A program made the position numbers and the translations under genes. The notes beneath the pieces are model-generated. The model searched no databases. It saw nothing but the letters and a program-made list of their open reading frames with translations, and had not been told where the DNA came from. Of a DNA stretch of 64,000 bases, positions 25,957 to 50,001 are shown in pieces (the stretch's first letter is position 1; every line of letters begins with the position of its first letter). Source of the DNA: Thermosediminibacter oceani DSM 16646 (GTDB lineage: Bacteria; Bacillota; Thermosediminibacteria; Thermosediminibacterales; Thermosediminibacteraceae); the NCBI RefSeq assembly GCF_000144645.1, contig NC_014377.1:682001-746000 (forward strand), given 5' to 3'.

Positions 25957-26863
25957 TATAAAACAGCTTATAGGAAATACTCCGATCTTGAAAATAACCC
26001 GCTTTCCAATGCCGGAAGGTGTTAACGTATACGCCAAACTGGAGTATTTTAATCCGGGTGGAAGTGTGAAGGACCGGATAGGCATCTTTATGCTGGACGA
26101 AGCTGAAAAGGCGGGGCTTTTAAAACCCGGGGGCACTATAATAGAACCTACGGCAGGCAACACCGGTATTGGTCTTGCAATGGCCGCGCTGGAAAGGGGT
26201 TACAGGGTTATATTAGTGGTGCCGAAAAAATTCTCCGTGGAAAAGCAGGAGCTTATGAAAGCCCTGGGGGCGGAAATTGTTCACACGCCTACTGAGGCGG
26301 GCATGGAAGGCGCCATTGAGAAAGCCCTGGAACTGGGCCGGAAAATAGATGGAGCCTTTATACCAAACCAATTCGAAAACCGGGCAAACCCCATGGCTCA
26401 CTACAAAACAACGGGCCCGGAAATTTATGAGCAGCTGGGAGGGAAGATAGACTATTTCGTGGCCGGGGTAGGGAGCGGCGGCACCTTTTCCGGTGTGGCC
26501 CGGTACCTCAAAGAGAAAAACCCGGAGGTAAAAGCCGTAGCTGTAGAGCCCGAGGGTTCTATCCTAGGTGGAGGTCCAAAAGGACCGCATAAGACCGAGG
26601 GAATCGGTGTGGAATTTATACCAAAAACACTCGATGTGAACTTAATCGATGAAGTGGTCACCGTAATGGACGAAGATGCCTTTGAAATGGTGAGGGAACT
26701 TGCCCGGAGGGAAGGAGTGCTGGTGGGCAGTTCCTCGGGGGCAGCCTTTTTTGCGGCGTATCAGATCGCGAAAAAAATAAAAGGTCCAGCTAATATCGTT
26801 ACGATCTTTCCCGATGGCAGCGAGAGGTACCTGAGCAAGAAAATTTACGAGGGGGGAATTTAA
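25934..26863 (+). CDS. cysK: Cysteine synthase (O-acetylserine sulfhydrylase)
   Basis: PLP enzyme making cysteine from O-acetylserine and sulfide. The 309 residues contain the PLP lysine K46 in GGSVKDR, EPTAGNTGIG, the GVGSGGTFSG phosphate loop and GSSSGAAFF. The start overlaps the end of the third methyltransferase gene and is served by GGAGG. A second, divergent cysteine synthase is at 41440-42381. Linkage to methyltransferases suggests it may trap sulfide released from a methylated sulfur compound (inference). Confidence 0.93.
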   Translation: MAGPIVDDIKQLIGNTPILKITRFPMPEGVNVYAKLEYFNPGGSVKDRIGIFMLDEAEKAGLLKPGGTIIEPTAGNTGIGLAMAALERGYRVILVVPKKFSVEKQELMKALGAEIVHTPTEAGMEGAIEKALELGRKIDGAFIPNQFENRANPMAHYKTTGPEIYEQLGGKIDYFVAGVGSGGTFSGVARYLKEKNPEVKAVAVEPEGSILGGGPKGPHKTEGIGVEFIPKTLDVNLIDEVVTVMDEDAFEMVRELARREGVLVGSSSGAAFFAAYQIAKKIKGPANIVTIFPDGSERYLSKKIYEGGI

Positions 26864-36328: not shown

Positions 36329-36342
36329 AAGAGGGTGTTATA

Positions 36343-36486
36343 ATGGCTGGATGGCTTAAAAGGTTTCTGGAGAATTTAGCTAAGGTCAATGAAAAAGAAT
36401 TTGGCGGTAAAAAGATGGATTGCTGTGAATTACACCGAACTCAGGAAAAACGCCCGGTGAATAATAATAAGAAGAATACAAAATGA
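36343..36486 (+). CDS. Small DCC-motif putative metal-binding protein
   Basis: 47 residues: WLKRFLENLAKVNEKEFGG, then MDCCEL, then a basic Asn/Lys-rich tail. It resembles the small 'LDCC motif' proteins seen beside metal genes in Clostridia (from memory). GAGGGTG lies before the ATG, 14 bp after copA, so the two are co-transcribed; the adjacent cysteines could bind copper. The following 53 bp to the hairpin hold no gene. Confidence 0.7.
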   Translation: MAGWLKRFLENLAKVNEKEFGGKKMDCCELHRTQEKRPVNNNKKNTK

Positions 36487-36539
36487 CTTACATTGTATTG
36501 GAGCTGTAAGTTATAAAAAATTTTTTACGACGTGTAAAA

Positions 36540-36567
36540 GAGCCTCTTTTACCAAAAAAAGAGGCTC
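36540..36567. terminator. copA terminator hairpin; left target duplication of IS copy 3
   Basis: GAGCCTCTTTT-ACCAAA-AAAAGAGGCTC, 11-bp stem, 28 bp in all; repeated exactly at 38164-38191. Confidence 0.9.
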
Positions 36568-38163
36568 CAGACTGTCGACAAAGTAACTGTCGACAGTCTT
36601 TTTTTGCAAAAGCTAGTACAAAAATCATCAGCTTTTTAGTAAAATTAAAGAAGATACAAAAATATTGTGGGGCGATGAAATGTTAACGAAGAAAAATCGA
36701 GAAATAATAGAGCAGGTAGAATTAGTAAGCATCGATAGCTTAGTACCTCAAGACCATCTCCTTAGGGCAGTAGAAGAAAGCATCGACTTTAATTTCATTT
36801 ATGATGAAGTAAAAGACCTATATAGCGAAAATACAGGAAGACCTAGTATTGACCCGGTAGTGTTAATTAAGCTACTCATGCTCCAAGCATTGTATGGAAT
36901 CCGCTCCATGCGCCAAACCATCAGAGAAGTAGAAGTCAATGTAGCTTACCGTTGGTTTTTAGGCTATGGATTACAAGAAAAAATACCTCACTTTTCAACT
37001 TTTGGAAAAAACTATGAACGGCGGTTTAAGGAAAGTGATCTATTTGAAAAGATATTCGAGCGGGTGTTGATGGAAGCAATAGAATGCGGGTTTGTTAAAA
37101 CAGATGCAGTATTTATCGATGCTACTCACATAAAAGCCAGTGCCAATAAGAATAAATATATCGAGAAAGTCGCTAAGCAACGGACTCAAAAATATAAGGA
37201 AGAACTTTTAAAAGAAATCAACGCCGAACGGGAAGCAAACGGTAAAAAGCCCTTTGAAGAAGAAGATGATGATGACGATAACAACAAAGGAGAAAATAGC
37301 TCTAAAAAAGTCAGGGTAAGCACCACAGATCCTGAAAGTGGGATGTTTCAAAAAGGGGAAAAAGAGCGCTGCTTTGCCTACACAGCTTCTGTAGCCTGTG
37401 ACCGGAACAACTTTTGTCCTTGGTGTCAAAATAGCACCTGGAAATGTTCATGACAGCCAGGTATTCTCCGATTTATTTCAAGAAGTAAACGATAAATTTT
37501 CTAAAATAGAGGCGGTAGTGGTTGATGCAGGCTACAAAACCCCCGGGATATGCAGAGAAATCATTGAGGCAGGAGCGCTTCCCGTTATGCCCTACAAGAG
37601 GCCGATGACCAAAGATGGTTACTTTAAAAAACGCGAATACGTCTATGACGAATATTATGATTGTTACATATGCCCCAACAACCAAATATTAGAATACAGC
37701 ACCACCAACCGGGCGGGATACCGGGAATATAGGAGCAACCCCCAAATATGCTGTAAATGTCCCATGCGCCTACAGTGCACCAAAAGTAAAAATTACACAA
37801 AAATCATAACTCGGCATATATGGGAGCATTACATAGAAATAGCGGAAGATATAAGACACACCCAATGGGGTAAAGAACTATACAAAATGCGCGGCCAGAC
37901 CATCGAGCGGGTATTTGCCGATGCGAAGGAAAAGCATGGCATGCGCTATACAAATCTACGAGGCTTGAGGAAAGTTGGACATTACCTCACGCTTCTTTTC
38001 GCATGCATGAATTTAAAAAAGCTGGCTTTATGGAAGAAAAGACGGGGAACGTTTCCGCCAACAGTCCCCGCTTTACATTCGTTTTTCTTAAAAATTTTCT
38101 TCGCCTTCAACAAAAAGCCGCTTTTAGGTTATGCATCCTAAAAGCGGCTTTGTCTACAAGCTG
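36568..38163 (+). mobile_element. IS1182-like insertion sequence, copy 3
   Basis: 1596 bp, one base longer than the intact copies because of an extra T in the run at 37411-37414. Flanked by the 28-bp terminator repeat of copA. Ends identical to the other copies. Same orientation as the terminated transcript. Confidence 0.94.
36680..38141 (+). pseudogene. IS1182-like transposase, copy 3, frameshifted in the middle
   Basis: The first frame (36680-37453) covers residues 1-~244, then shifts at AACAACTTTTG where the other copies have AACAACTTTG; the rest continues in the next frame to 38141. The break falls between the first and second presumed catalytic aspartates, so no active protein is expected unless ribosomes shift. 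The other three copies lack the extra T, so it is a private mutation. Confidence 0.88.
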
Positions 38164-38191
38164 GAGCCTCTTTTACCAAAAAAAGAGGCTC
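38164..38191. terminator. Right target duplication of IS copy 3 (terminator hairpin)
   Basis: Exact repeat of 36540-36567, followed by TTTTTT; a complete terminator remains on this side. Confidence 0.9.
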
Positions 38192-38272
38192 TTTTTTGTG
38201 TCTGTTATAAGAGATACATGGTCTGTATATCAAGAATCCTAGCTGGATAAAATAGGAACGGGAGGTATGAAT

Positions 38273-38626
38273 ATGAAAAATAACGTTTTTGCATTACTTT
38301 TCAAGCTGGCTATGAATATAGTGCTTGCATGGGTAGCCTTCGGGATTATAGGGAGGAACCCTCTGACTTACGTTATTATCCTGGGAATTGCAACCACGGT
38401 GATCAATCTGGTCTTGGGGGACCTTTTTGTGTTGCCGAAATACGGTAACACGGTAGCTTCGGTGGGGGACGGCTTTTTAGGGGTACTGACGGCGCTGGTT
38501 ATGGACCAACTGGTGCTGGAATTTACAACAAGCCCCATGACTCTCCTGATTTACGGTTTCACAATACTGGTGGGAGAATTCATGTTTCACAGCTATCTAC
38601 AGAATTTAAGACTGATAACGAGATAG
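38273..38626 (+). CDS. DUF2512 (YndM-like) membrane protein
   Basis: 117 residues with four hydrophobic segments (about 7-27, 31-54, 62-82, 87-105). Pattern matches the DUF2512/YndM family of Firmicutes, function unknown. The ATG at 38273 is chosen because GGGAGGT ends 6 nt before it; the ATG at 38267 directly abuts that site. Stands alone, ended by a bidirectional terminator. Confidence 0.8.
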   Translation: MKNNVFALLFKLAMNIVLAWVAFGIIGRNPLTYVIILGIATTVINLVLGDLFVLPKYGNTVASVGDGFLGVLTALVMDQLVLEFTTSPMTLLIYGFTILVGEFMFHSYLQNLRLITR

Positions 38627-38631
38627 GCATT

Positions 38632-38669
38632 AAAAAATGACCTCTTTTTGGCAAAAGAGGTCATTTTTT
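38632..38669. terminator. Bidirectional terminator between DUF2512 gene and cotJC
   Basis: Perfect 17-bp stem with a TGGC loop (core ATGACCTC/GAGGTCAT) and A/T tracts on both sides, between convergent genes. Not occupied by the insertion sequence. Confidence 0.9.
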
Positions 38670-38682
38670 ATAAAAGTGAGTG

Positions 38683-39258
38683 TTAGTAAAAGATGTGTTT
38701 ATGCTCATAGTGTTCCTTGACCAGCATCAATGCCTCGCCGAACCTCTGGAAGTGAACTACCTCCCGTTCCCTGAGGAAGGAGAGCGTTGCAATGACTCCG
38801 TCGTCGTCGGTGAGGGAAATGAGATGTTCGTATGTGGTGCGGGCTTTCTGTTCGGCCGCCATATTTTCGTGGAGGTCGGTTATGGGATCGCCGGTAGCCT
38901 GGATATAGGCTGCGGTCCAGGGCACTCCGGCAGCATCGTGGGGGTACAGAGCTTTGTCATGTTGAGCGAAATGATCCCCCAGTCCGGCTTCCCTCATCTG
39001 CTCGGGTGTGGCGTCTTCGGTCAGTTTATATATGAGCGTACCGATAATTTCCCAGTGGGCCATTTCCTCGGTACCGATGTCGGTCAGGAGTGCCTTGGCC
39101 TGAGGTATGGGCATCGTATAACGCTGGGTGAGATATCTCACCGCAGCGGAAAGTTCGCTGTCCGGACCGCCGTACTGTGCAAACAGGTATTTTGCCATGC
39201 CTAAATCGCAGCCCCTTACATTAGCAGGGTACTGAAGTTTTTTCTCGTAAAACCACAT
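38683..39258 (-). CDS. cotJC: Spore coat protein CotJC, manganese-catalase family
   Basis: 191-residue four-helix ferritin-like protein. Metal-ligand glutamates and histidines lie in GTEEMAHWEIIG and FLREREVVHFQRF. In spore formers CotJC is an inner coat component; catalase activity is possible but not assured. Third gene of the cotJABC operon (minus strand), 18 bp after cotJB, preceded by GGGAGGTGG. Confidence 0.93.
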   Translation of the reverse strand: MWFYEKKLQYPANVRGCDLGMAKYLFAQYGGPDSELSAAVRYLTQRYTMPIPQAKALLTDIGTEEMAHWEIIGTLIYKLTEDATPEQMREAGLGDHFAQHDKALYPHDAAGVPWTAAYIQATGDPITDLHENMAAEQKARTTYEHLISLTDDDGVIATLSFLREREVVHFQRFGEALMLVKEHYEHKHIFY

Positions 39259-39276
39259 CTTTTTTCCACCTCCCGC

Positions 39277-39537
39277 TTAATAGTGGATTTCCCAAGGCCA
39301 CGGGTCGTTGATGTAGCGATAGGGGAATTGAGATTCGAAGGAGTCAAGGCGAAGCGGCCCGTATCTATCCTCAAACACCTTTCTCAACTGGCTTAACCTG
39401 TTCACCAGTTTGTTGCGGTCTTCCAGGGCCCTCCTATCACAGGGATGGGTGTCAAGGAAAAGGGCCAGGTCATAAACAGCAAACTCCAATGCCTGGATCT
39501 CTCTTAACATATCAACCATCGATGCGTAATCATGCAT
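39277..39537 (-). CDS. cotJB: Spore coat protein CotJB
   Basis: 86 residues: helical N-terminus (MLREIQALEFAVYDLALFLDTHP) and the typical C-terminal YINDPWPWE. Structural partner of CotJC in the spore coat. The GAGGTGAT before the ATG lies between cotJA and cotJB. Confidence 0.93.
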   Translation of the reverse strand: MHDYASMVDMLREIQALEFAVYDLALFLDTHPCDRRALEDRNKLVNRLSQLRKVFEDRYGPLRLDSFESQFPYRYINDPWPWEIHY

Positions 39538-39562
39538 CGCATATCACCTCGCCGAAATATTC

Positions 39563-39739
39563 TTACTTATGAGATTTTCCGTGTTTAGGACGATACGGCC
39601 TATATAATTCAGGAAATATGGTTCCGTACATAAGGGCTGTTCTCGGGTCGAAAGTTTCCCCGTAGGTCTGCATGGGTATATAAGCCTCTGCAAGCCTCAT
39701 GCCATCACAGCCTTTTGACATATTTTCGGGTCTTGTCAT
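39563..39739 (-). CDS. cotJA: Spore coat-associated protein CotJA
   Basis: 58 residues with LAEAYIPMQTYGETFDP and ALMYGTIFPELYRPY, the CotJA signature. First gene of cotJABC. GGGGGG lies before the ATG. Expression in the mother cell is expected from the family, but I could not pick out a convincing sigma-E promoter. Confidence 0.9.
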   Translation of the reverse strand: MTRPENMSKGCDGMRLAEAYIPMQTYGETFDPRTALMYGTIFPELYRPYRPKHGKSHK

Positions 39740-39832
39740 TTATTATTACCCCCCAGGGAGAATTTTTCAATTCGTTAAATGTCTCAGTAATATACTATGA
39801 AAACTAGTTTATTTCAGTTACATATTAAAAAT

Positions 39833-39857
39833 AAAAAGCCGTGCGCAAGGCACGGCT
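39833..39857 (-). terminator. Terminator of the 43-residue gene
   Basis: AGCCGTGC-GCAAG-GCACGGCT; on the minus strand it is followed by TTTTTATTTTT. It starts AGC and ends GCT like the hairpins hit by the IS, yet is empty. Confidence 0.85.
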
Positions 39858-39865
39858 CTAAGGCT

Positions 39866-39997
39866 TTAACACCAGTCGCTCAGCAGGAGAAGTATTAATA
39901 TCAGAAATACGATAAAAGCCTTGCGGTCGCGGCGGCAATCACGGTCACGATCATGTTCACCGCCGAAGAAGCCGCCGCCTCCGGTTACATCGCTCAT
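39866..39997 (-). CDS. Small Gly-rich membrane protein, 43 residues
   Basis: MSDVTGGGGFFGG, then a charged stretch HDRDRDCRRDRK and a C-terminal membrane helix (FIVFLILILLLL) ending DWC. Perfect AAGGAGGG before the ATG and a terminator right after the stop make it a real gene. Similar tiny Gly-rich tail-anchored proteins occur in spore formers; function unknown. Upstream of cotJABC on the same strand. Confidence 0.8.
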   Translation of the reverse strand: MSDVTGGGGFFGGEHDRDRDCRRDRKAFIVFLILILLLLSDWC

Positions 39998-40076
39998 TCA
40001 AATCCCTCCTTATCGCCATTCTCAATACCAGTATATGTAGACAATATTTAACGGGTTACAACAAATAATAATAACA

Positions 40077-40164
40077 GCCCCATTTTTTATCAATACTATT
40101 ATTCAGAAAGGTTTTTACGGAAAATTAGCTCAGCCCCGTATTTAATTTTTATGATAAAAGGGGC
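40077..40164 (+). promoter_or_regulatory. Leader of the MFS gene with competing pairings
   Basis: TGATAAAAGGGGC (40152-40164) can pair either with GCCCC...TTTTATCA at 40077-40092 or with the nearer GCCCC at 40133-40137; the near pairing is followed by GTTTGTTTT. This looks like an attenuator but is unproven. Confidence 0.3.
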
Positions 40165-40191
40165 GTTTGTTTTGAAAGGAGCGGAGGAAAA

Positions 40192-41412
40192 GTGAAAAAG
40201 AGTACCGGCATCCAGCTTGCCCTTTTATGTCTCGTTCCTTTTATAATGGTTCTCGGTAATTCCATGTTGATTCCGGTATTACCGGCCATAAAAGAAGCCG
40301 TAGGTATTAACCAGTTTCAGGTGGGCCTTTTTATAACGGCTTTTTCAATACCAGCAGGCCTTGTGATCCCCTTTGCGGGAATGCTTTCCGACCAGATAGG
40401 CCGAAAAAAAGTGATGGCTCCTGCCCTGATAATTTACGGTATAGGCGGGATAGTGGCGGGGCTGAGTTCAATTTTGCTTAAAAATCCCTATTGGGGAATC
40501 CTTGCAGGAAGGATAATTCAGGGAGTGGGTGCCGGGGGTACCTACCAGTTGGCCATGGCCATAGTCGGTGATACCTTCAGTTCTGAAGAGCGGAGCAAGG
40601 CTCTCGGCCTGCTGGAAGCGTCCAACGGGTTGGGCAAGGTGGTAAGCCCCATCCTCGGTGCCAGCATAGCAATGATTATCTGGTACTTTCCCTTTTTCGC
40701 CTACGGTATCCTTGCCATACCGGTCGGCATTATCCTCTATTTTTTTGTTAAAGAAAAGGCCGAATTCAAAAAGCAGTCCTTACAAAACTACATCAGCGCA
40801 GTGAAGGCAATCTTCGATAAAAAAGCTGCAGGCCTCTTTACCAGTTTTTTTGCCGGAATGACGGCTTTGTTTTCGCTTTTTGGCATTCTTTCCCTTTACT
40901 CGGATATACTTGAAATGAATTTTGATGCGGTGGGTTTTAAAAAAGGCCTGATTATTGCTGGCCCGGTGCTCGTTATGGCTTCGTTTTCCTATGCACTGGG
41001 TATACTGCTTGAAAAGCGGAAAAACAAAGGCTTAAAAATCTTTATACTGGCGGGGCTTATATTGATAGTATCGGGACACATACAGTTTTCGCTCGTCAAG
41101 GAGTTCTGGCCGCTGTTTTTTTCCGTCTTAATCCTTGGGGCCGGCGTCGGCCTTATAATGACCCCCGTAAATGCTCTGGTAACGGGTTCGTGCAGTGTCC
41201 AGCGAAGGGGCATAATTACATGCATCTACGGTAGCCTCAGATTTTTTGGCGTGGCGGTAGGCCCTCCCATTTATGCGTTTTCCGAAAGATACGGTATTTT
41301 ACCGGTAGTGCTGGCAGCGGGTTCGTTGAGCCTGATAGCCCTTATTATTGCCATGTTCCTCCTGGTGCCCGAGAAAATACTTTCGGATAAAGAAAACAAA
41401 AAAGAGGGATAA
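40192..41412 (+). CDS. MFS drug-type efflux transporter
   Basis: 406 residues, about 12 hydrophobic segments. Motif A is GMLSDQIGRKKV between helices 2 and 3, and the motif-C-like glycine/proline stretch LEASNGLGKVVSPILGA is in helix 5, marking a drug:proton antiporter. Substrate unknown. GTG start with GGAGCGGAGG upstream. Monocistronic, ended by a strong bidirectional terminator that contains its stop codon. Confidence 0.88.
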   Translation: MKKSTGIQLALLCLVPFIMVLGNSMLIPVLPAIKEAVGINQFQVGLFITAFSIPAGLVIPFAGMLSDQIGRKKVMAPALIIYGIGGIVAGLSSILLKNPYWGILAGRIIQGVGAGGTYQLAMAIVGDTFSSEERSKALGLLEASNGLGKVVSPILGASIAMIIWYFPFFAYGILAIPVGIILYFFVKEKAEFKKQSLQNYISAVKAIFDKKAAGLFTSFFAGMTALFSLFGILSLYSDILEMNFDAVGFKKGLIIAGPVLVMASFSYALGILLEKRKNKGLKIFILAGLILIVSGHIQFSLVKEFWPLFFSVLILGAGVGLIMTPVNALVTGSCSVQRRGIITCIYGSLRFFGVAVGPPIYAFSERYGILPVVLAAGSLSLIALIIAMFLLVPEKILSDKENKKEG

Positions 41413-41427
41413 CGTCCCTCTTTTTTT
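41398..41427. terminator. Bidirectional terminator between MFS gene and cysteine synthase 2
   Basis: AAAAAAGAGGGA-TAACG-TCCCTCTTTTTT, 12-bp stem with T tracts in both directions; unoccupied by the IS. Confidence 0.9.
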
Positions 41428-41439
41428 GCTGAATAATTT

Positions 41440-42381
41440 TTATTCCGAAGGGAACAAGCCCTCCACACTCAAGTAGCGCTCGCCGGTATCCGGGAGCACC
41501 GTTACCACAAGGTTTTCTGGGTTTAAGGTTTTTGCCACCTTCCGGGCAGCAAACACCGCGGCTCCGGAAGATATGCCGGCGAGGATTCCCTCTTTTGTGG
41601 AAAGCTCACGGGCTGTAGAAAAAGCGTCTTCGTTGCTTACCGTTATTATTTCATCTATCAAATTGAGGTCCAGCACTCTTGGTATGAAGCCGGCACCGAT
41701 ACCCTGGATTTTATGAAGCCCCGGTTTACCGCCGGACAGCACGGGAGACGCTGCCGGCTCCACGGCCATTATTTTGACGTGAGGCATTTCCTTCTTCAAT
41801 ACCCTGGCGACGCCGGTTATGGTTCCGCCGGTGCCGACCCCGGCCACAAAGGCGTCGAGCTTGCCTCCGGTTTGCTCTAGTATCTCAATAGCCGTAGTTT
41901 TTTCGTGGATTTCCGGATTGGCCGGATTTTCAAACTGCTGGGGCATAAAAGAGTCCTTTATTTCCCTCGTGAGTTCCAAAGCCTTTTCTACTGCTCCTTT
42001 CATGCCCAGCTCCGGAGGAGTTAAAACGAATTCAGCACCGTATGCCTTTAAAAGCCTGCGCCGTTCTATGCTCATTGAGGCCGGCATGACAAGTATCAGG
42101 CGGTATCCTTTTACGGCACATACCATGGCAAGACCTATACCGGTGTTGCCGCTAGTTGGTTCCACTATAGTTGAACCAGGCCTCAGGATTCCCCTCTTTT
42201 CGGCGTCCAGGATCATGCTGTAGGATATGCGGTCCTTTACGCTGCCTCCGGGATTAAAAGATTCGAGCTTTGCCGCGATGGCGGCGCCGCCTTCGGGTGA
42301 GAGCCTGGACAGGCGGACCATCGGGGTCATACCTATCAGATCGAGAATGGAATCATTTATGCGGGAAATTTTGTTTTCCAT
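41440..42381 (-). CDS. cysK: Second cysteine synthase-family PLP enzyme
   Basis: 313 residues with PLP lysine K49 in [27 protein letters not shown] and GISSGAAVF. Clearly paralogous to the protein at 25934 but divergent. It lies 17 bp after the ThiF-like gene on the same strand; such pairings occur where sulfur is delivered by a carrier protein (CysM-type), so the sulfur donor may not be free sulfide. ATG at 42381 follows GGGG; the in-frame start at 42402 overlaps the upstream gene. Confidence 0.88.
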
Positions 42382-42398
42382 GACATCAATCCCCTTTC

Positions 42399-43802
42399 TC
42401 ACAGATTATTTTCTTTTCTTTCACAGACAAAATCGTATTCACCGCTAAGGCCTCTTATGGATGGACTTTGGCCGCACACGGGACAGCCAGGATCCTTCTT
42501 TAAATCGGGCAGCTTGAAATCCAGCTCCATTGCATCAAAGATTAAGAGTCTTCCGCTCAAAAGCTTACCGCGCCCGGTCAGGATTTTGGCCGCTTCGGCC
42601 GCCTCTATGGACCCCATGACTCCGGGGACGGGACCGAGTACGCCCGTTTCGGAGCAGGAGGGAGTACTGCCCGGTGGTGGCATTTTGGGGAAAACGCAGC
42701 GGTAACAGGGACCTTCGCCGGGAACTACCGTCATACCCAGGCCTTCGAACCGGAGTACACCGGCTTCGGCCAGCGGTTTTCCGGCCAGGACGCAAGCGTC
42801 GTTTAAGAGATAGCGGGTAGGTAGGTTGTCCACGCCGTCTATTATCACGTCGTAGTCCTTGATTATTTCTAAAGCGTTTTCCCTGTCGAATCTGGTGTGG
42901 TATTTTACAACATTCACTTCTGGGTTTATTTTTTTCAAGAAAATCTCTGCCGATTCAACTTTAGGCATACCGATTCTGGAAGTGGTATGCAGAATCTGCC
43001 TGTTTAAATTACTTATTTCCACGGTGTCGATGTCCACGAGTCCGATGGTTCCCACGCCGGCCAGGGTAAGAGCCAGCGCTGCAAGAGAGCCGAGACCTCC
43101 GGTTCCGACTATTAGCACTTTGGAGCGCGAAAGCTTCTCTTTTTCCAGCGGGTGTTCCGGAATATCGGCTTTTATAAATTCGTTCCAAGATACACCGGTT
43201 TTAAACTCCATATCGTCAAGGTCAAAGTACAGAGGACTCTCGAGCAGACGGCCCATATTCAGGCACAGCTTTACGGCTTCTATGGCGCATAATGTTCCGG
43301 CGAGGCAGCGGGAAAAGGCGGCTCCGGCTGAACCACGCTCTGAATAATCACCATCTATCGTTTCGGGTAATGTATCGTCGAGGAGGTCCGCTCTTTTAAC
43401 CGTCCTCATGTACCCCTTCCACGGCCGCGTTGCTGCCAAGATTGCGGGAATTTCTTTTAAGTACTTTGCAGCCTTAAAATTGTTGATAAAAACTGCGAAG
43501 TCGAGTTTTTCTCCGGTTGGTAAGGCGGTTGCGTCCTCTAGAAACTCTATTTTTAAGTCCGGGTTTAAGTCCTCGAGGTTCTCCTTTAAATATAAAAATT
43601 CTTGATTAAATTTTTCCGCAGCAACGTAAATACGTCCTATGCCCGCAGCCGTGAGGTAGTAAAGCAAGGGCAAAGCGCAATCAAGAGACGAAGAAATTAC
43701 AAGACCCGTGGATTCGATGAGTTTTTTCTGGCCGGGCCCGCTGATCTCGGGCATTATTATGTGCCTGAGGTACCTGTATAGCTGTTCTTTAGGCAGGATC
43801 AA
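42399..43802 (-). CDS. ThiF/MoeB-type E1-like enzyme with a degenerate first module
   Basis: 467 residues. Residues ~1-215 look like a ThiF module without a nucleotide loop: [19 protein letters not shown] is intact, but the glycine-rich loop is [12 protein letters not shown]. Residues ~220-467 form a complete module: [24 protein letters not shown]...CPVC zinc ligands, and a [12 protein letters not shown] crossover. It should adenylate the C-terminus of a ThiS/MoaD-like sulfur carrier. TTG start after GGGGTGA. Operon with cysteine synthase 2; no carrier gene is visible nearby. Confidence 0.85.
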
Positions 43803-43891
43803 CCGAACTCACCCCTTCCCGGGCTAATTCCTTGTATACAAATAGGATTATGATACTTTGATTTTACACTTCGAAACCGGCCGTGTCAATT

Positions 43892-43920
43892 AAAAAAACA
43901 GAACCCTTTATGGGTCCTTT
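43892..43920. terminator. Terminator after bioY
   Basis: GAACCC-TTTAT-GGGTCC with one wobble pair, A-rich on the left and T-rich on the right, so active on the minus strand (TGTTTTTTT) and possibly both. Confidence 0.65.
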
Positions 43921-43934
43921 TTCTAGGGGGGGAA

Positions 43935-44489
43935 TCACATCGAGGAAATTTTCCACTGAAGCGCCTTTCTGAGCGACAGTGCCAGTACCGAGGAGACGAC
44001 TGCTTTCAGAAGATCACCCGGAATGAACGGCAGTGCTCCGGCCATTATAGCGGCGGTTAAGGTCATATTGGTCATATATGCCAAATATGAAACGCCAACG
44101 GCATATACAATTACTATACCACCCAGGATATTTACAAGTAAAAGCGTAGCAAGATTGGGATTTACTTTTTTCAGGATTAAAGCTATTAGGTAACTAGCTA
44201 CGGGCCAGCTCATGAGATAGCCTCCCGTGGGGCCGAACAGGATCCCGAGACCGCTGGTACCACCGCTGAATACGGGTAACCCTATAGCTCCCATAAAGAG
44301 GAACACAGTCATGCTCCAAAATGCAGCCTTGGGGGTTAACACACTTCCCGCCAGCATGACAGCAAGGGTCTGCAACGTGATGGGTACGGGGCTGAAGGGT
44401 AGAGGAATACTAATGTAGCCGAAAAGAGCTGTAATCGAGGCAAATAGCGCTATGGAGGCGATTTCTCTGACGTCGAGGTTTTTGTTCAT
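43935..44489 (-). CDS. bioY: Biotin transporter S component BioY
   Basis: 184 residues, six hydrophobic segments. Substrate-binding unit of an ECF-type biotin transporter; hallmarks are PLPFSPVPITLQTLAVMLAG and GILFGPTGGYL. No ECF ATPase genes are adjacent, so it probably shares the common energising module or acts alone. AAAGGAG precedes the ATG; good promoter upstream, terminator downstream. Confidence 0.93.
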   Translation of the reverse strand: MNKNLDVREIASIALFASITALFGYISIPLPFSPVPITLQTLAVMLAGSVLTPKAAFWSMTVFLFMGAIGLPVFSGGTSGLGILFGPTGGYLMSWPVASYLIALILKKVNPNLATLLLVNILGGIVIVYAVGVSYLAYMTNMTLTAAIMAGALPFIPGDLLKAVVSSVLALSLRKALQWKISSM

Positions 44490-44527
44490 AAACTGACTCC
44501 TTTCGCAGGTGAATATTGCTAAGTGCT

Positions 44528-44556
44528 ATTTTAAAGCAACCGGGATTGAATGTCAA
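44528..44556 (-). promoter_or_regulatory. Sigma-A promoter of bioY
   Basis: Minus strand: TTGACA (44556-44551), 17-nt spacer, TAAAAT (44533-44528). No clear BirA palindrome was seen. Confidence 0.75.
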
Positions 44557-44599
44557 CCATAAATATAAAAGAAGTTTACAATTCCGTTCGGTTGTTTTA

Positions 44600-44628
44600 T
44601 TGACTGGCTTTATAAAATTTTATAAAAT
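44600..44628 (+). promoter_or_regulatory. Sigma-A promoter of the CopZ-like gene
   Basis: TTGACT (44600-44605), 17-nt spacer, TAAAAT (44623-44628). No CsoR-like palindrome here, unlike copA. Confidence 0.75.
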
Positions 44629-44687
44629 AAGATAGAATAGAAAAGGAAGCTTTTTGTAGTTTATAAATTTTTTTTGGAGGGATGTAG

Positions 44688-44927
44688 ATGCCTCACTGCT
44701 GTAATCACGGGCCGGGGAGATCTGATATCACGCTAAAGGTATCGGGCATGTCGTGCTCCCACTGCAAGCACGCGGTAGAATCCGCGGTAAAGGCTCTGCC
44801 GGGCATTGAGAAGGTGGATGCAAGGGTTGAGGATGGCAAGGTGGATGTGTCCTTCGACCCTTCTAAGGTATCTCTTGAGCAGATCACGAGAGCTATTGAA
44901 GATGCCGGTTACGAGGTGCAAAGGTAA
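44688..44927 (+). CDS. CopZ-like heavy-metal-binding chaperone
   Basis: 79 residues, one HMA domain with GMSCSHC at ~20-26 and the ferredoxin-like fold pattern ending IEDAGYEV. An extra N-terminal CCNHGPG could add metal ligands. It would hand copper (or another soft metal) to CopA. Strong GGAGGG before the ATG; own promoter and terminator. Confidence 0.88.
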   Translation: MPHCCNHGPGRSDITLKVSGMSCSHCKHAVESAVKALPGIEKVDARVEDGKVDVSFDPSKVSLEQITRAIEDAGYEVQR

Positions 44928-44933
44928 AATTAA

Positions 44934-44984
44934 AGATTTTATGCGGGTCTTGGTCTGAAAAAGGCCCCATAAAATCTTTTTTTT
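44934..44984 (+). terminator. Terminator after the CopZ-like gene
   Basis: AGATTTTATG pairs with CATAAAATCT (10 bp) enclosing an inner GGTCTT...AAGGCC-type stem; followed by seven T. Confidence 0.8.
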
Positions 44985-45065
44985 GTCTTTTGAGTAGAGG
45001 GATTTTCCACTTGTCTTGACCTAAATAAAATGGTACACTAAATATTGTTAGGGAAGGCGATTTTT

Positions 45066-45449
45066 ATGCTGACAAGAGGGGACAAGATTTTAATTGCATC
45101 AGTACTAGTGTTTGCCGTCGCGATTTTTACCGGTTTTCAGATTTATGGGTTCGGCGGCGGCAGGACTTATGCCGTGATAGAGGTGGACGGCAGACAGTAT
45201 CAGAAGATTTCCCTCGGCAGCGATGGACCGAAACTTCAGCTGAAGGTGCCGGGAGTGCTGGGAGAACTTATCATAGAAGTTGACAGGGACAGGGTCAGGG
45301 TAGTTTCCGCCGACTGTCCCGATAAGGATTGCATAAGACAGGGGTGGGCGTCCCGGCCCGGGCAGATGCTCGTGTGCCTTCCGAACCGGGTTGTAGTTAA
45401 GATAGAAAGCGAAAAGTCGCCGGAAGGACCGGATGTCGTGAGTTTCTGA
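45066..45449 (+). CDS. NusG domain II (DUF)-containing membrane-anchored protein
   Basis: 127 residues: N-terminal membrane helix (about 8-28), then a beta-rich extracytoplasmic NusG-II-like domain with SADCPDKDCIRQGW and CLPNRVVVKI. This family typically precedes the Gx transporter gene, as here, and often occurs near apbE/FMN-binding genes. Function unknown; the paired cysteines suggest a redox role. ATG at 45066 follows AGGGAAGG; the in-frame TTG at 45045 is less likely. Confidence 0.85.
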   Translation: MLTRGDKILIASVLVFAVAIFTGFQIYGFGGGRTYAVIEVDGRQYQKISLGSDGPKLQLKVPGVLGELIIEVDRDRVRVVSADCPDKDCIRQGWASRPGQMLVCLPNRVVVKIESEKSPEGPDVVSF

Positions 45450-45475
45450 GGCTGATTTTTTGAGGATGATGTATT

Positions 45476-46006
45476 ATGACTAAAAACAGGAAAATGATAT
45501 ACTTGTCACTGCTTGTGGCCGGCGGCGTGGCGCTTCACCTAGTGGAGAGCCTGATCCCCATACCTTTTCCCGTTCCCGGGGCAAAGCTTGGTCTTGCCAA
45601 CATCGTATCTCTTCTGGCGATAGCTCTGTACGGCACGAGAGAAGGTCTTGAGGTAAATATCCTGCGCTGCCTCATAGGGTCTCTGCTGGGCGGTTCCATG
45701 TCAAGCCTGCTTTACAGCTTGTCGGGAGCCGTTTCCAGCACTATCATGATGGGAATCGCTTACACGTATTTTAAAAACGCTTTCAGCCTCGTTGGTATCA
45801 GTATCATCGGAGGAGTAACTCACAACATCGCCCAGGTGACGGTGGCGAGCTTAATTCTTTCTACTTTCGGTCTTTTTTCCTACCTGCCTTTCCTTATGGT
45901 AGTCGGCCTGCTGACTGGAGTTTTTACCGGATTCGCGGCCGGTTTTGCCAGGAATAACCTGGCGATCAATCTTGGCCAGCTTGAGACGACCGGAAAAAGG
46001 AGATGA
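45476..46006 (+). CDS. Gx transporter family protein (heptaprenyl diphosphate synthase component I-like)
   Basis: 176 residues, about five hydrophobic segments, with PIPFPVPGAKLGLANIVSL and a GGVTHNIAQ stretch typical of the family long annotated as HepPP synthase component I but resembling an ECF-type small transporter. Substrate unknown. 26 bp after the NusG-II gene and 4 bp before DUF4321, in a conserved order. Confidence 0.85.
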   Translation: MTKNRKMIYLSLLVAGGVALHLVESLIPIPFPVPGAKLGLANIVSLLAIALYGTREGLEVNILRCLIGSLLGGSMSSLLYSLSGAVSSTIMMGIAYTYFKNAFSLVGISIIGGVTHNIAQVTVASLILSTFGLFSYLPFLMVVGLLTGVFTGFAAGFARNNLAINLGQLETTGKRR

Positions 46007-46010
46007 AACC

Positions 46011-46259
46011 ATGAAGAAGCGCACCCGCAGTACGGCGCTGCTAATAATACTGCTGTTAGCCGGGGCTATTGTGGGGAGCGTTCTGGGCGAAGCCCTGAAA
46101 AGCGTGGTTCCTCTGCTTTCGTATGGTAAAAAGCTGGGCTTAGATATGATAAGTCTCGACATGGGCGTAGCAGGCCTTACTTTCGGTTTTTATTTGAACC
46201 TCAATCTGGCGGCAGTCCTTGGGGTATCACTTGCAGCCCTTTTATACCAGAGGATGTAA
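46011..46259 (+). CDS. DUF4321 membrane protein
   Basis: 82 residues with two hydrophobic segments (about 8-28 and 50-78), the family usually found just before maf. AAAAGGAG lies 10 nt before the ATG at 46011; the longer in-frame start at 45945 overlaps the preceding gene and is not needed. Function unknown. Confidence 0.8.
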   Translation: MKKRTRSTALLIILLLAGAIVGSVLGEALKSVVPLLSYGKKLGLDMISLDMGVAGLTFGFYLNLNLAAVLGVSLAALLYQRM

Positions 46260-46271
46260 CGGGGGATAAAG

Positions 46272-46850
46272 ATGGCTCAAAAGTTAATCCTGGCCTCGGC
46301 TTCACCAAGGAGGCGGGAACTCCTGGCGCAGTTGGGGCTTGATTTTAAAGTGATTCCCAGCGGCATCGACGAGACATCACTGACCGCAGGACCGCCTGAG
46401 CTTGTAGCTGTCCGCCTCGCCGAGCAGAAAGCGGCGGATGTGGCTATGCGTGCGGGCGAAGGCATTGTTATAGGTGCCGACACCATAGTCGTGGTGGACG
46501 ACAGTATACTGGGAAAACCGAAGGACGAAAACGACGCGAGAAAGATGCTCACCCGGTTGAGCGGCAGGTGGCACCGTGTCTATACCGGCATTGCCGTTAT
46601 ACATACCGCTTCGGGGGGAAAAATTTCGGATTACGAGGAAAGCCGGGTGAAGTTTAAAAAGCTTTCGCCGCGTGAAATTGAAAATTATATAAAAACAGGA
46701 GAGCCCATGGATAAAGCCGGTGGTTACGGCATACAGGGCAAAGGGGCTTTGCTTGTAGAGAAAATAGAAGGATGTTATTATAATATTGTGGGTTTACCCC
46801 TGTTTAAACTGGGCGCCATGCTTTCACACTTTGGTGTCGAAGTGCTGTGA
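46272..46850 (+). CDS. maf: Maf-like nucleotide pyrophosphatase
   Basis: 192-residue house-cleaning nucleoside triphosphate pyrophosphatase. Motifs ASASPRRRELL (8-18), GADTIVVVDD, and KAGGYGIQGKGA are present. Precedes radC as in many Firmicutes; the stop lies 17 bp before the radC start. Confidence 0.95.
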   Translation: MAQKLILASASPRRRELLAQLGLDFKVIPSGIDETSLTAGPPELVAVRLAEQKAADVAMRAGEGIVIGADTIVVVDDSILGKPKDENDARKMLTRLSGRWHRVYTGIAVIHTASGGKISDYEESRVKFKKLSPREIENYIKTGEPMDKAGGYGIQGKGALLVEKIEGCYYNIVGLPLFKLGAMLSHFGVEVL

Positions 46851-46867
46851 TCGGGGAGGATATTGCG

Positions 46868-47560
46868 GTGTCATCTTTGACGATTAAGGATTTGCCAAGG
46901 GAAGAAAGGCCTAGAGAACGCTTCCAGCGCTACGGGGCCGAGGTGCTCAGCGATGCTGAACTCCTGGCCCTTTTAATAAGGACCGGTACAGTTTCCGAAT
47001 CGGCTCTGGTGCTGGCTCACAGGATCTTAAAGGGCGATGGCGGCAAAGCGGGACTGGAATTTGTGGCCCGGGCCGGCGTAGAAGAGCTGTCAAAAATAAA
47101 GGGCATTGGTCTGGCAAAAGCGGTACAGATCAAGGCAGCAGTTGAGCTAGGGCGCCGGATTTCCGCCTATTGCAGAAATGATGACATCGTAATATCGTCA
47201 CCGGCCGATGTGAAAAAATTATTAATGGAAGAAATGCGATTTCTGGAAAAGGAGCACTTTAAGGTCATCCTGCTCAACGTGAAAAATCGAGTAATATCAG
47301 TAGAGGATATTTCCATCGGTAGCCTCAACTCTTCTATTGTCCACCCAAGGGAGGTTTTTAAACCTGCCATTAAAAGGAGCAGTGCTGCAATAATACTGGT
47401 ACATAACCATCCGAGCGGCGATCCAACACCGAGCAGGGAGGATATAGAAATCACAAGGAGACTGGTGGAGGCAGGGAGGATCCTCGGGATAGATGTCTTA
47501 GATCACGTAATTATCGGAAATCCGTCTTACGTTAGCTTCAAAGAAAAAGGACTGTTATGA
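46868..47560 (+). CDS. radC: RadC/YsbX-type JAMM-domain protein
   Basis: 230 residues: N-terminal helix-hairpin-helix part (LSDAELLALLIRTGT, KIKGIGLAKAVQIKA) and C-terminal JAMM metal site LVHNHPSGDPTPS. Once linked to repair, its biochemical role is unsettled. GTG at 46868 follows GGGGAGG by 9 nt; a GTG at 46847 would overlap maf. Confidence 0.93.
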   Translation: MSSLTIKDLPREERPRERFQRYGAEVLSDAELLALLIRTGTVSESALVLAHRILKGDGGKAGLEFVARAGVEELSKIKGIGLAKAVQIKAAVELGRRISAYCRNDDIVISSPADVKKLLMEEMRFLEKEHFKVILLNVKNRVISVEDISIGSLNSSIVHPREVFKPAIKRSSAAIILVHNHPSGDPTPSREDIEITRRLVEAGRILGIDVLDHVIIGNPSYVSFKEKGLL

Positions 47561-47598
47561 ATAGATAAATTCAACAACAAAAGGAAAGGAGTACTTTC

Positions 47599-48633
47599 AT
47601 GTTAGGGCTTTTCAGGGCGCTGTCGAAAGATATAGGAATAGATTTGGGCACGGCAAACACTCTTGTGCACGTTAAGGGAAAGGGAATAGTACTTAGAGAA
47701 CCTTCGGTGGTGGCTATTCAGAGGGATACGGGGGATATTCTCGCCGTAGGGGAAGAGGCCAAACACATGATAGGCCGCACTCCGGGGAACATAGTTGCCA
47801 TTAGACCGCTGAAGGATGGGGTAATCGCCGATTTCGACGTAACCCAGACGATGCTTAAGCACTTCATATCAAAAGCTTTAAAGACCCGGTCTTTCGTGAA
47901 GCCTCGCGTTGTCGTCGGCATCCCTTCGGGCGTCACCGAAGTAGAAAAGAGGGCGGTTATAGATGCGACCCTTCAGGCCGGAGCCAGAGAGGCCTACCTT
48001 ATAGAGGAGCCCATGGCGGCGGCCATAGGCGCGGGGCTTGAAGTACAGGAACCCACCGGCAATATGGTCGTGGATATAGGCGGCGGTACTACCGAAGTGG
48101 CTATCATTTCTCTCGGAGGGATAGTGACGAGCAAATCTATCCGCATAGGCGGTGACGAGTTCGACGAAGCAATAGTAAATTACATTAAAAAAGAGTACAA
48201 TCTCATGATCGGTGAACGCACGGCGGAAGAAATCAAGATCGCTATAGGGTCTGCTTTTCCAAAGCCCAAAGAGGAGGCGATGGATGTAAGGGGTAGGGAC
48301 CTGGTAACGGGCCTGCCGAAGACCATAAAGGTGACTTCCGAAGAGATAAGGGAAGCTCTCATGGAACCGGTCAGCAGCATCTTAGATGCGATAAAATTCA
48401 CGCTGGAAAAAACTCCTCCGGAGCTGGCCGCAGATATAATGGATCGGGGTATAGTAATGATCGGTGGCGGCGCTCTGCTTTACGGGCTTGATAAACTGGT
48501 AAACCAGGAGACGGGAATGCCGGTCCATATAGCCGAAAACCCGATGGACTGCGTCGTGCTCGGGACCGGTAAAGTCCTTGAAGAACTGGATCTTTTAAAG
48601 CGCGTGCAGGTATCATCCAAAAAAGTCGTTTAA
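47599..48633 (+). CDS. mreB: Rod-shape actin homologue MreB
   Basis: 344-residue actin-like protein guiding lateral wall synthesis. [24 protein letters not shown] and the C-terminal [10 protein letters not shown] nucleotide-binding motifs are all present. GGAAAGGAG precedes the ATG. Head of mreBCD-pbp2. Confidence 0.96.
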
Positions 48634-48648
48634 AGGACGTGGTGATTT

Positions 48649-49497
48649 TTGCTGCGTCTTGGGCGTTATAAAAAAAGCTTTTTGTTGGTATTGGTGGTGG
48701 CTGCTCTGGGCTTTACCGCAAATATTACGGCCCGGAACAGCCTGTTATTTAACAAAATCGAAAGTCCCGCCATCTCATTGCTGAAACCCGCCCAGGAGTT
48801 ATTTTCCTGGATATCCGGCGGTGTGAGGAATGGTATTGAATCGGTTGCTGAAGTGTTTTACCTGAAGAGGGAGAACGAGGCCTTGAAAAAACAGCTGGCG
48901 GAGCTTGAGGAATACAGGCACAAATTTCTGGAATATAGAGATGAAAACGCCAGGCTTCGCCGGATGCTGGAATTTAAGGAAAAAAATCCCCAGTACGACC
49001 TGGTGGCTGCCGAAGTAATCGGCAGAGACCCGGGCAACTGGTTTAACGTAATAATAATAAATAAAGGAAAGAATAGCGGTATCACGAAGGATATGGCGGT
49101 CGTCACCGAACGAGGATTGGTGGGTTATACCGTAGATGTGGGAAACAACTGGGCTAAGGTGCTTATGCTCCTGGATAACAGGATGTCGGTAAGCGCCATG
49201 ATACAAAGGACCAGGGATAACGGCATCCTTAAGGGGAATATAGCTCCGGCGCCGCCGGGCCACGCCAAAATGGTATTTTTGCCCGCTGATGCATCCATAG
49301 TTAAGGGAGATGTGGTGATAACTTCCGGGATGGGGGGCATAGTTCCCAAGGGAATAATCATAGGTGAGGTAGTCGAAGTGAAAAAGGAAACGGATAATCT
49401 GACCCAGTACGCAATAGTGAAGCCAGCTGTGGATTTTCACAAACTGGAAGAAGTTTTCGTTATAAAAAATGCAAACGCTGACCCGGGGAGGGAATAG
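48649..49497 (+). CDS. mreC: Rod-shape protein MreC
   Basis: 282 residues: short cytosolic start, one membrane helix (about 10-28), a coiled coil (RENEALKKQLAELEEYRHKF), and an extracellular beta domain with VIGRDPGNWFN. TTG start, 15 bp after mreB. Confidence 0.95.
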   Translation: MLRLGRYKKSFLLVLVVAALGFTANITARNSLLFNKIESPAISLLKPAQELFSWISGGVRNGIESVAEVFYLKRENEALKKQLAELEEYRHKFLEYRDENARLRRMLEFKEKNPQYDLVAAEVIGRDPGNWFNVIIINKGKNSGITKDMAVVTERGLVGYTVDVGNNWAKVLMLLDNRMSVSAMIQRTRDNGILKGNIAPAPPGHAKMVFLPADASIVKGDVVITSGMGGIVPKGIIIGEVVEVKKETDNLTQYAIVKPAVDFHKLEEVFVIKNANADPGRE

Positions 49498-49500
49498 TCT

Positions 49501-50001
49501 TTGAGGCTGTTTATCTATTTGATGATCGTAACTTTATTGATCATCGTGCAGTCCACCCTGGGAGTGCTTTTTAAAATAGGGAGCGTAAAGCCCGATTTCG
49601 TGCTGACGTTTGTAATGTGTGTGGCATTAATAAAAGGCGAGAATTTGGGAGCCGCCTATGGTTTGATTAGCGGGCTTATAGAGGATATAGTTTACGGTAA
49701 ATTTCTGGGATTCAGCGCGCTCGTAAAGTTCCTCACCGGGTATATTGTAGGTTATGGGACCAGGGACTTATTCAAGGGTCCAATTATGTTTACCATAGGA
49801 TTTGTTTTCGCGGGAACGCTGCTTTACAACCTTATATTTTTTATGACTGCGCTGGTACTTACTCCCGAATACAAGATAGGATTTTTTGTGCCCGTAGTCG
49901 TATATTCAGCGCTTTACAATGCGGTTATAGGCCCTGTGATGTACAGCGCTATTTTGAGGCTGGAAAAATTCCTTGATTATTATTTCGCCATCAAATATTA
50001 A
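49501..50001 (+). CDS. mreD: Rod-shape protein MreD
   Basis: 166-residue membrane protein with about five hydrophobic segments and the typical KPDFVLTFVMCVAL and GLISGLIEDIVYG. TTG start 3 bp after mreC. Confidence 0.92.
   Translation: MRLFIYLMIVTLLIIVQSTLGVLFKIGSVKPDFVLTFVMCVALIKGENLGAAYGLISGLIEDIVYGKFLGFSALVKFLTGYIVGYGTRDLFKGPIMFTIGFVFAGTLLYNLIFFMTALVLTPEYKIGFFVPVVVYSALYNAVIGPVMYSAILRLEKFLDYYFAIKY

Follow-up and report, generated by a model that had tools for sequence, protein, structure and literature searches.

MoeB, ThiF and TtuC are single-domain E1-like enzymes that form symmetric homodimers, and R14 of MoeB acts across the dimer. The E1-like superfamily was reportedly the subject of a study by Burroughs in 2009. 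In Thermus, a single E1, TtuC, serves TtuB, MoaD and ThiS (PMC3980101, in excerpt). The eukaryotic E1s (UBA1, UBA6, UBA7, SAE1-SAE2 and APPBP1-UBA3) combine an inactive (IAD) with an active adenylation domain (AAD) in a pseudo-symmetric arrangement. Arg57 of UBA1 holds the gamma-phosphate site together with Arg515, and the same is the case in MoeB (PMC12355090, in excerpt). The step from the homodimeric MoeB to the asymmetric ubiquitin E1 is usually argued from the end points alone. A pseudodimeric bacterial E1 in a single chain is already known: BilD, an E1 of phage defence, has an N-terminal IAD and a C-terminal AAD in one chain (PMC11354881, in excerpt).

The protein described here has a comparable arrangement. 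It is encoded in the window (the whole 64,000-nt stretch of DNA that was analysed), which comes from a heat-loving bacterium with a genome of one 2.28 Mb contig, 99.99% complete. An earlier note had proposed an ORF for a tandem ThiF protein, and this ORF is present with the following features:

42399..43802, minus strand: tandem ThiF/MoeB-type E1-like protein (ORF call; 467 aa, TTG start)
43188..43802, minus strand: N-half, ~residues 1-205, pseudo (inactive) adenylation domain of predicted ThiF fold (profile and structure comparison)
42468..43142, minus strand: C-half, residues 221-445, predicted active adenylation domain (Pfam, NCBIfam, MoeB alignment)
43761..43775, minus strand: arm motif RYLRH (residues 10-14), with R10 opposite MoeB R11 and R13 opposite MoeB R14 in the alignment
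43089..43106, minus strand: nucleotide loop GTGGLG, residues 233-238 (sequence motif, MoeB alignment)
42654..42656, minus strand: C383, aligned with MoeB C187 and the crossover-loop cysteine of Uba4
42474..42707, minus strand: zinc-site cysteines C366, C369, C440 and C443 (27/27 in the MoeB alignment)

The tandem protein is the sole E1-like enzyme of the genome: a Pfam profile search of the complete genome gives one PF00899 match, and this is it. With a probability of about 0.75, it is a pseudo-heterodimeric E1 for thiocarboxylated carriers of the MoaD and TtuB types. Its task is likely the activation of sulfur carriers for tungsten/molybdenum pterin and for tRNA thiolation.

Two unequal halves in one chain

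Pfam recognizes ThiF in the tandem protein at residues 221-442 only (267.9 bits), and residues 1-205 match no Pfam family; the NCBIfam model PRK05690 scores 280.6 bits (cut-off 266). The two halves are the product of a duplication. Comparison of their profiles gives a probability of 97.4 and an E-value of 1.2e-11 over 175 columns. As the earlier note had said, the N-half keeps a 16-residue opening of the ThiF/MoeB type and is without GxGGLG, a motif that occurs once in the protein, at residue 233, and the second half is complete, with all its adenylation residues and zinc cysteines. The note had made fold prediction of the N-half the decisive trial of its proposal. The proposal withstands this trial because a model of the N-half by itself (mean pLDDT 81.7, pTM 0.81) matches ThiF in Foldseek (1e-12) and MoeB in VIA (Z 18.1, rmsd 3.2, 185 residues). 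The list of matches of this model also includes the inactive E1 subunits APPBP1 and SAE1.

The model of the complete protein (mean pLDDT 83.1, pTM 0.88) superposes with both halves on UBA1-type E1s over ~370-410 residues. Its best structural match among the matches listed is BilD of a bacterial E1-E2-Ubl complex (8tz0_A in VIA: Z 32.7, rmsd 3.2, 383 residues, 14% identity, model residues 12-451). PDB entries 8tz0 and 8tyz are presumably BilD, going by their titles. This match, to an enzyme with IAD plus AAD in one chain (PMC11354881, in excerpt), could mean that the tandem protein acts as E1 in a protein-conjugation pathway like that of BilABCD. Such a role is highly improbable. BilD has an inserted cysteine domain, whereas the tandem protein has no added cysteine domain of ~80 residues, and every C-half is co-linear with MoeB. 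The neighbours of the tandem gene belong to sulfur metabolism, and no E2, JAB or Bil-type neighbour is seen in the listed neighbourhoods, in which most ORFs were judged by eye. Searched against the PDB sequences, the N-half profile finds E. coli ThiF (1e-14) as well as Uba4 and MoeB; chains of BilD or UBA1 are missing from its matches up to an E-value of 10.

The E1-like architecture of the tandem protein, which the earlier note had compared with that of the eukaryotic enzymes, holds up in sequence and in predicted fold, as the whole model aligns with BilD and UBA1 and residues are lost reciprocally from the two halves. Good support for an inactive N-half combined with an active C-half, in the pseudo-symmetry of E1s, comes from the sequence, the predicted structure, the reciprocal loss of residues and a two-gene version that occurs in nature.

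The reciprocal loss is seen when 27 N-halves and 27 C-halves, taken from 26 tandem proteins and one split pair, are compared with E. coli MoeB; genomes G002 and G005 carry further tandem genes, outside the 26. The positions of MoeB R11 and R14 are occupied by arginine in 27/27 N-halves, of which 26 had been picked by a pattern requiring the arm (RHIIMPEI was one of the six seeds used to scan the database). The N-halves keep MoeB G38 in 5/27 cases, and G40 and G41 in 0/27; R73 and K86 fall at gaps in all 27, single columns being uncertain in so diverged a half. The C-halves keep G38, G40, G41, G43, D62, N70, R73, K86, D130 and the four zinc cysteines in 27/27 cases and MoeB R14 in 0/27, the arm being absent. 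Because the selection demanded the arm, the informative parts are the loss of the arm from the C-half and of the loop from the N-half. Judged by these residues, each half has decayed where the other is intact, with the arm arginines preserved in the N-half and the adenylation and zinc sites in the C-half. The distance between arm and loop is 214-257 residues in 26/26 tandem proteins and 25-27 residues in 30/30 rows of single-domain enzymes (27 distinct, 3 duplicates).

The following division of labour would account for the chain. The C-half would bind ATP and adenylate the Gly-Gly end of a carrier, and the N-half, binding no nucleotide, would serve as its fixed dimer partner. The arm arginine of the N-half would be lent to the active site of the C-half, in the manner of the inactive half in eukaryotic E1s. 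From motif and numbering, UBA1 Arg57 appears to match R13 of the tandem protein. As residues 1-20, the arm included, have pLDDT <50 in the model of the complete protein, the case for an arginine acting in trans is one of sequence match.

It might also be that the N-half is a decayed passenger without a role and that the C-half is an ordinary homodimer. The N-half is fast evolving, as its long branches indicate, and has lost the nucleotide-binding positions, but R10, R13, H14 to I20, G22, G24 and Q25 are invariant in 18/18 rows of alignment A1 (L040 and L043, incomplete at contig ends, were omitted). Furthermore, the C-half's own arm is gone in 27/27 cases, and a C-half homodimer would therefore be without the arm arginine. 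A passenger N-half is very unlikely.

In its catalytic and zinc residues, the C-half is the same as MoeB, ThiF and TtuC; the presumed substrates are alike, and the tandem gene co-occurs with carriers and with aldehyde:ferredoxin oxidoreductase (AOR). Those enzymes, however, are homodimers of one kind of domain, whereas the tandem protein has two unequal domains with active site and arm apart. With Uba4 and MoeZ it shares the adenylation domain, the crossover cysteine and, presumably, sulfur-carrier activation. The role of the crossover-loop cysteine of Uba4 is described in PMC7527816; the corresponding position, C383, is Cys in 23/27 C-halves and is missing in 4/27. Uba4 and MoeZ have a rhodanese domain, whereas the tandem protein has none, its chain continuing for just 24 residues beyond the last zinc cysteine; some of its relatives have a fused or adjacent IscU-like protein instead. 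The tail cysteine C460 was at first assumed to be a sulfur relay residue, and this claim was dropped; it is present in 19/26 tandem proteins.

Descent and a two-gene version

In a tree of 81 rows, from which BilD and the eukaryotic E1s were left out, one branch (100/99) separates the N-halves from all other rows, and the 26 fused C-halves group as a single clade (100/100) within the single-domain E1s of the Bacillota. This nesting also argues against an E1 of protein conjugation. The N-halves are long-branched and fast evolving, so that their exact root is unsure. The split C-half (G025, locus L155) falls into the same unresolved area of the tree as the fused C-halves. The nested position of the C-halves, together with the N-half profile search, suggests that the tandem E1 arose independently of BilD and of the eukaryotic E1s, which have cysteine domains and a ubiquitin-fold domain, whereas the tandem protein has neither. 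Descent would have led from a Bacillota homodimer of the MoeB/ThiF type through duplication to a division of labour.

In G025, each half has its own gene; the two genes overlap by ATGA, and the second has a ribosome site of its own, AAGGAG. An origin of these genes by frameshift was rejected on account of this site and of the second frame, which opens one codon before its ATG. The two-gene version is seen in one genome, a draft assembly. It parallels the eukaryotic heterodimers SAE1-SAE2 and APPBP1-UBA3, and the retention of the split pair with a separate ribosome site is a further argument against a passenger N-half.

Among 398 sampled genomes of the phylum, 15 have N-half matches of >115 bits. 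Ten of these belong to the family and order of the present genome (itself included), and the others are G258, G390, G281, G157 and G308. A bacterial lineage seems to have repeated the step from MoeB to E1 inside sulfur metabolism and without a cysteine domain. Living relatives display the two-gene and the fused stages, which makes the step testable. The use of a pseudodimeric E1 for sulfur carriers, its two-gene stage and its link to IscU appear to be unreported: a literature search, mostly of papers outside subscription, found no tandem or inactive ThiF in a sulfur-carrier setting and no ThiF with NifU.

Carriers, cysteine synthase and the source of sulfur

The surroundings of the tandem gene contain the following elements:

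41398..41426, minus strand: terminator-like hairpin after cysK (sequence inspection)
41440..42402, minus strand: cysK, cysteine synthase A; overlap with the tandem gene of 4 bases as called
43861..43889, minus strand: promoter-like TTGACA-17-TAAAAT upstream of the tandem gene (11/12 consensus bases; kept in L032)
43900..43918, minus strand: terminator-like hairpin after bioY (sequence inspection)
43935..44489, minus strand: bioY, neighbour of the tandem gene (Pfam); probably outside the unit

With a promoter-like site of their own, a hairpin before them and a hairpin after cysK, the tandem gene and cysK look like a two-gene unit. The bioY gene is probably on a separate transcript because a terminator-like hairpin lies between it and the tandem gene. 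A regulator common to both was considered because the hexamers of the two promoters are identical, and it was rejected, since spacers and leaders differ. A leader block (TTTACCCGGAATTATT-like; window 43820-43850) lies ~35 bases before the tandem gene and is a possible operator. The window and L032-L037 have this block (...TTTACCCGGAATTATT...) in similar form, and L038 and L039 do not; one search pattern gave no second copy in the window, and no regulator was identified for it. No Rfam family is found within window 36000-50000. Some of the loci and genomes named here coincide (for example, L032 is G001, L038 is G013 and L039 is G009).

The earlier note was right that no ThiS-like gene is nearby, as the window holds no ThiS-family match. 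The genome search for Gly-Gly carriers that it had called for finds two ThiS-family proteins elsewhere, both ending in SGG. Carrier 1 (L081:9748-9996; 82 aa, ending in AASGG) lies directly 3' of an AOR gene, and carrier 2 (L082:9027-9224; 65 aa, ending in AISGG) directly 5' of a TtuA-like gene; the AOR domains, PF02597 and the TtuA LIM domain at these loci all score over their cut-offs. Neither carrier scores high enough for a named NCBIfam equivalog, and "MoaD-type" and "TtuB-type" are therefore labels taken from the neighbourhood. The likely substrates of the tandem protein would be the MoaD-type carrier beside AOR, for the tungsten/molybdenum pterin, and the TtuB-type carrier beside TtuA, for tRNA 2-thiolation.

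Co-occurrence of E1, carriers and AOR is seen across a set of 24 related genomes, of which 17 have a tandem or split E1, two (G022, G024) a single MoeB/ThiF-type E1, and five (G010, G011, G014, G015, G023) no such E1. Four of these five have a PF00899 match for which TcdA is the best NCBIfam model, with a score below the TcdA cut-off; in G023, the PF00899 match is partial. Carriers, counted as ThiS-family matches over cut-off in frames of <=150 aa (longer frames were dropped), are present in 16/17 genomes with tandem or split E1 and in 2/2 with a single E1 (18/19 E1 genomes), and in 0/5 without. The figures for AOR are 15/17, 2/2 (17/19) and 0/5. The Fisher p-values are 0.00014 for carriers and 0.0005 for AOR, with the 24 genomes of one lineage treated as if unrelated. 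G019 has the tandem gene, and neither carrier nor AOR is found in its assembly (88% complete); in G008 (81% complete), a carrier is present and no AOR is found. At L194, the tandem gene stands at the 3' end of a cluster of AOR (by Pfam) and NuoE/F/G-like genes (named by eye). G024 has the genes for CysK, the single-domain E1, a cysteine desulfurase, TtuB and TtuA together on a stretch of 8.3 kb. G102 (L136) and G104 (L141) have, in addition to the tandem gene, a single-domain E1 of ~230 aa directly 3' of an AOR-carrier pair, the AOR fragments being named by eye. As this E1 stands beside the AOR-MoaD pair, the tandem protein of these two genomes must do something else or something extra.

The gene downstream of the tandem gene codes for CysK (461.8 bits, cysK cut-off 351; 326.8 bits, cysM cut-off 394). 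It is, as the earlier note had it, a second cysteine synthase, being one of two CysK over cut-off in the genome; the other lies in the window as well:

25961..26848, plus strand: the genome's other cysK match (over cut-off, genome profile search)

In mycobacteria, CysO, CysM and Mec make cysteine from a thiocarboxylated carrier. The earlier note had suggested a carrier-protein route to cysteine, in which the E1 would charge a ThiS-like carrier, CysK would take the thiocarboxylate sulfur, and a JAB peptidase would free the cysteine. The gene order speaks for such a route, as cysK is next 3' of the tandem gene in 9/9 loci (the window and L032-L039) and also in L157, L159 and L161. Neighbourhoods of E1 and cysteine synthase genes are known, and in 2006 they were interpreted as a link between sulfur transfer and the supply of cysteine (PMC1779556, in excerpt). 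The CysO-CysM-Mec system, however, has a JAB peptidase (Mec), a CysM-type synthase and a carrier gene with the synthase. The present genome has no JAB peptidase over cut-off, the synthase beside the tandem gene scores below the cysM cut-off, and the window has no carrier gene. The synthase is of the CysK type, and both carriers adjoin other systems, AOR and TtuA. CysE is found in 9/9 genomes searched, with 263.6 bits in the present one. A JAB peptidase scores over cut-off in 1/10 genomes searched, G003, where it adjoins a large E1-like protein with the look of phage defence (L206); the sole match in the present genome is below cut-off (window 47249-47497) and lies inside a RadC-like ORF (46847-47560). 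The suggested route is therefore unlikely, and the results for CysE, CysK and JAB point to ordinary cysteine synthesis. More plausibly, CysK supplies the cysteine whose sulfur loads the carriers.

On the reading of the tandem protein as a sulfur-carrier E1, the carrier adenylate would be converted to a thiocarboxylate with sulfur from cysteine, delivered via a cysteine desulfurase. The crossover-loop cysteine C383 is probably involved in the sulfur step, and CysK, presumably co-transcribed, would make the cysteine that serves as the source of sulfur.

An IscU variant linked to the tandem gene

The candidate ligands of IscU are Cys37, Cys63, Cys106, Asp39 and His105 (PMC4243993, in excerpt). 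The IscU cysteines accept sulfur from IscS, and loss of any one of the three does not abolish the transfer (PMC2854127, in excerpt). At six loci of other Bacillota (L041, L043, L044, L045, L046 and L050), a NifU_N gene lies directly 5' of the tandem gene (confirmed by Pfam on 2/6), and at L049 and L193, a NifU_N protein is fused to the tandem protein. The present genome has an unlinked NifU_N paralogue of the same type (L103:8992-9375). In the linked, fused and own-genome variants, Asp replaces IscU Cys37 and His105 is absent; unlike these two ligands of the IscU/NifU scaffold, Asp39, Cys63 and Cys106 are kept. The NCBIfam NifU scaffold model scores 191.6 bits on the variant (cut-off 187.9) and would label it an Fe-S scaffold despite the loss of 2/5 usual ligand residues. 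The simplest reading, a guess, is that the variant carries persulfide and has given up cluster assembly.

NifU_N was looked for in 27 genomes with a tandem or split gene (17 + 5 + 5 by their loci). The variant is present in 14 of these, nine have only NifU_N without Asp37, and four have no NifU_N match. Among 33 genomes without the tandem gene, 28 have NifU_N, and Asp37 occurs in none of those read (one has Leu, one a gap at this position). The association of variant and tandem gene has a Fisher p-value of 6e-7, relatedness being ignored. Since nine of the tandem or split genomes have only NifU_N without Asp37, a role of the variant as persulfide donor is not general.

Tentatively, and well short of even odds, the tandem protein may represent a third independent pseudo-heterodimeric E1, with homodimer, two-gene and fused stages, for which the IscU paralogue without Cys37 and His105, fused in two relatives, is a dedicated persulfide donor in place of the rhodanese of Uba4 and MoeZ. 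If this is true, ubiquitin-like carriers would have, in the IscU variant, a sulfur donor of a new kind.

Some minor observations may be added. The variant NifU_N paralogue occurs in the present genome and seven relatives of the family (L103:8992-9375; L096-L102, L259). An odd NifU_N with Leu at 37 and Glu at 105 is found at L246 of G071, a genome with a single-domain E1. At L103:1271-1489, an ORF translation repeats FQSLIGRLKT, a pattern suggestive of a CRISPR repeat array read as protein. In the window, a transposase-like gene at 36665-38141 is split over two overlapping frames, and a copy with identical first and last residues is a single ORF of 491 aa at L104:1846-3321.
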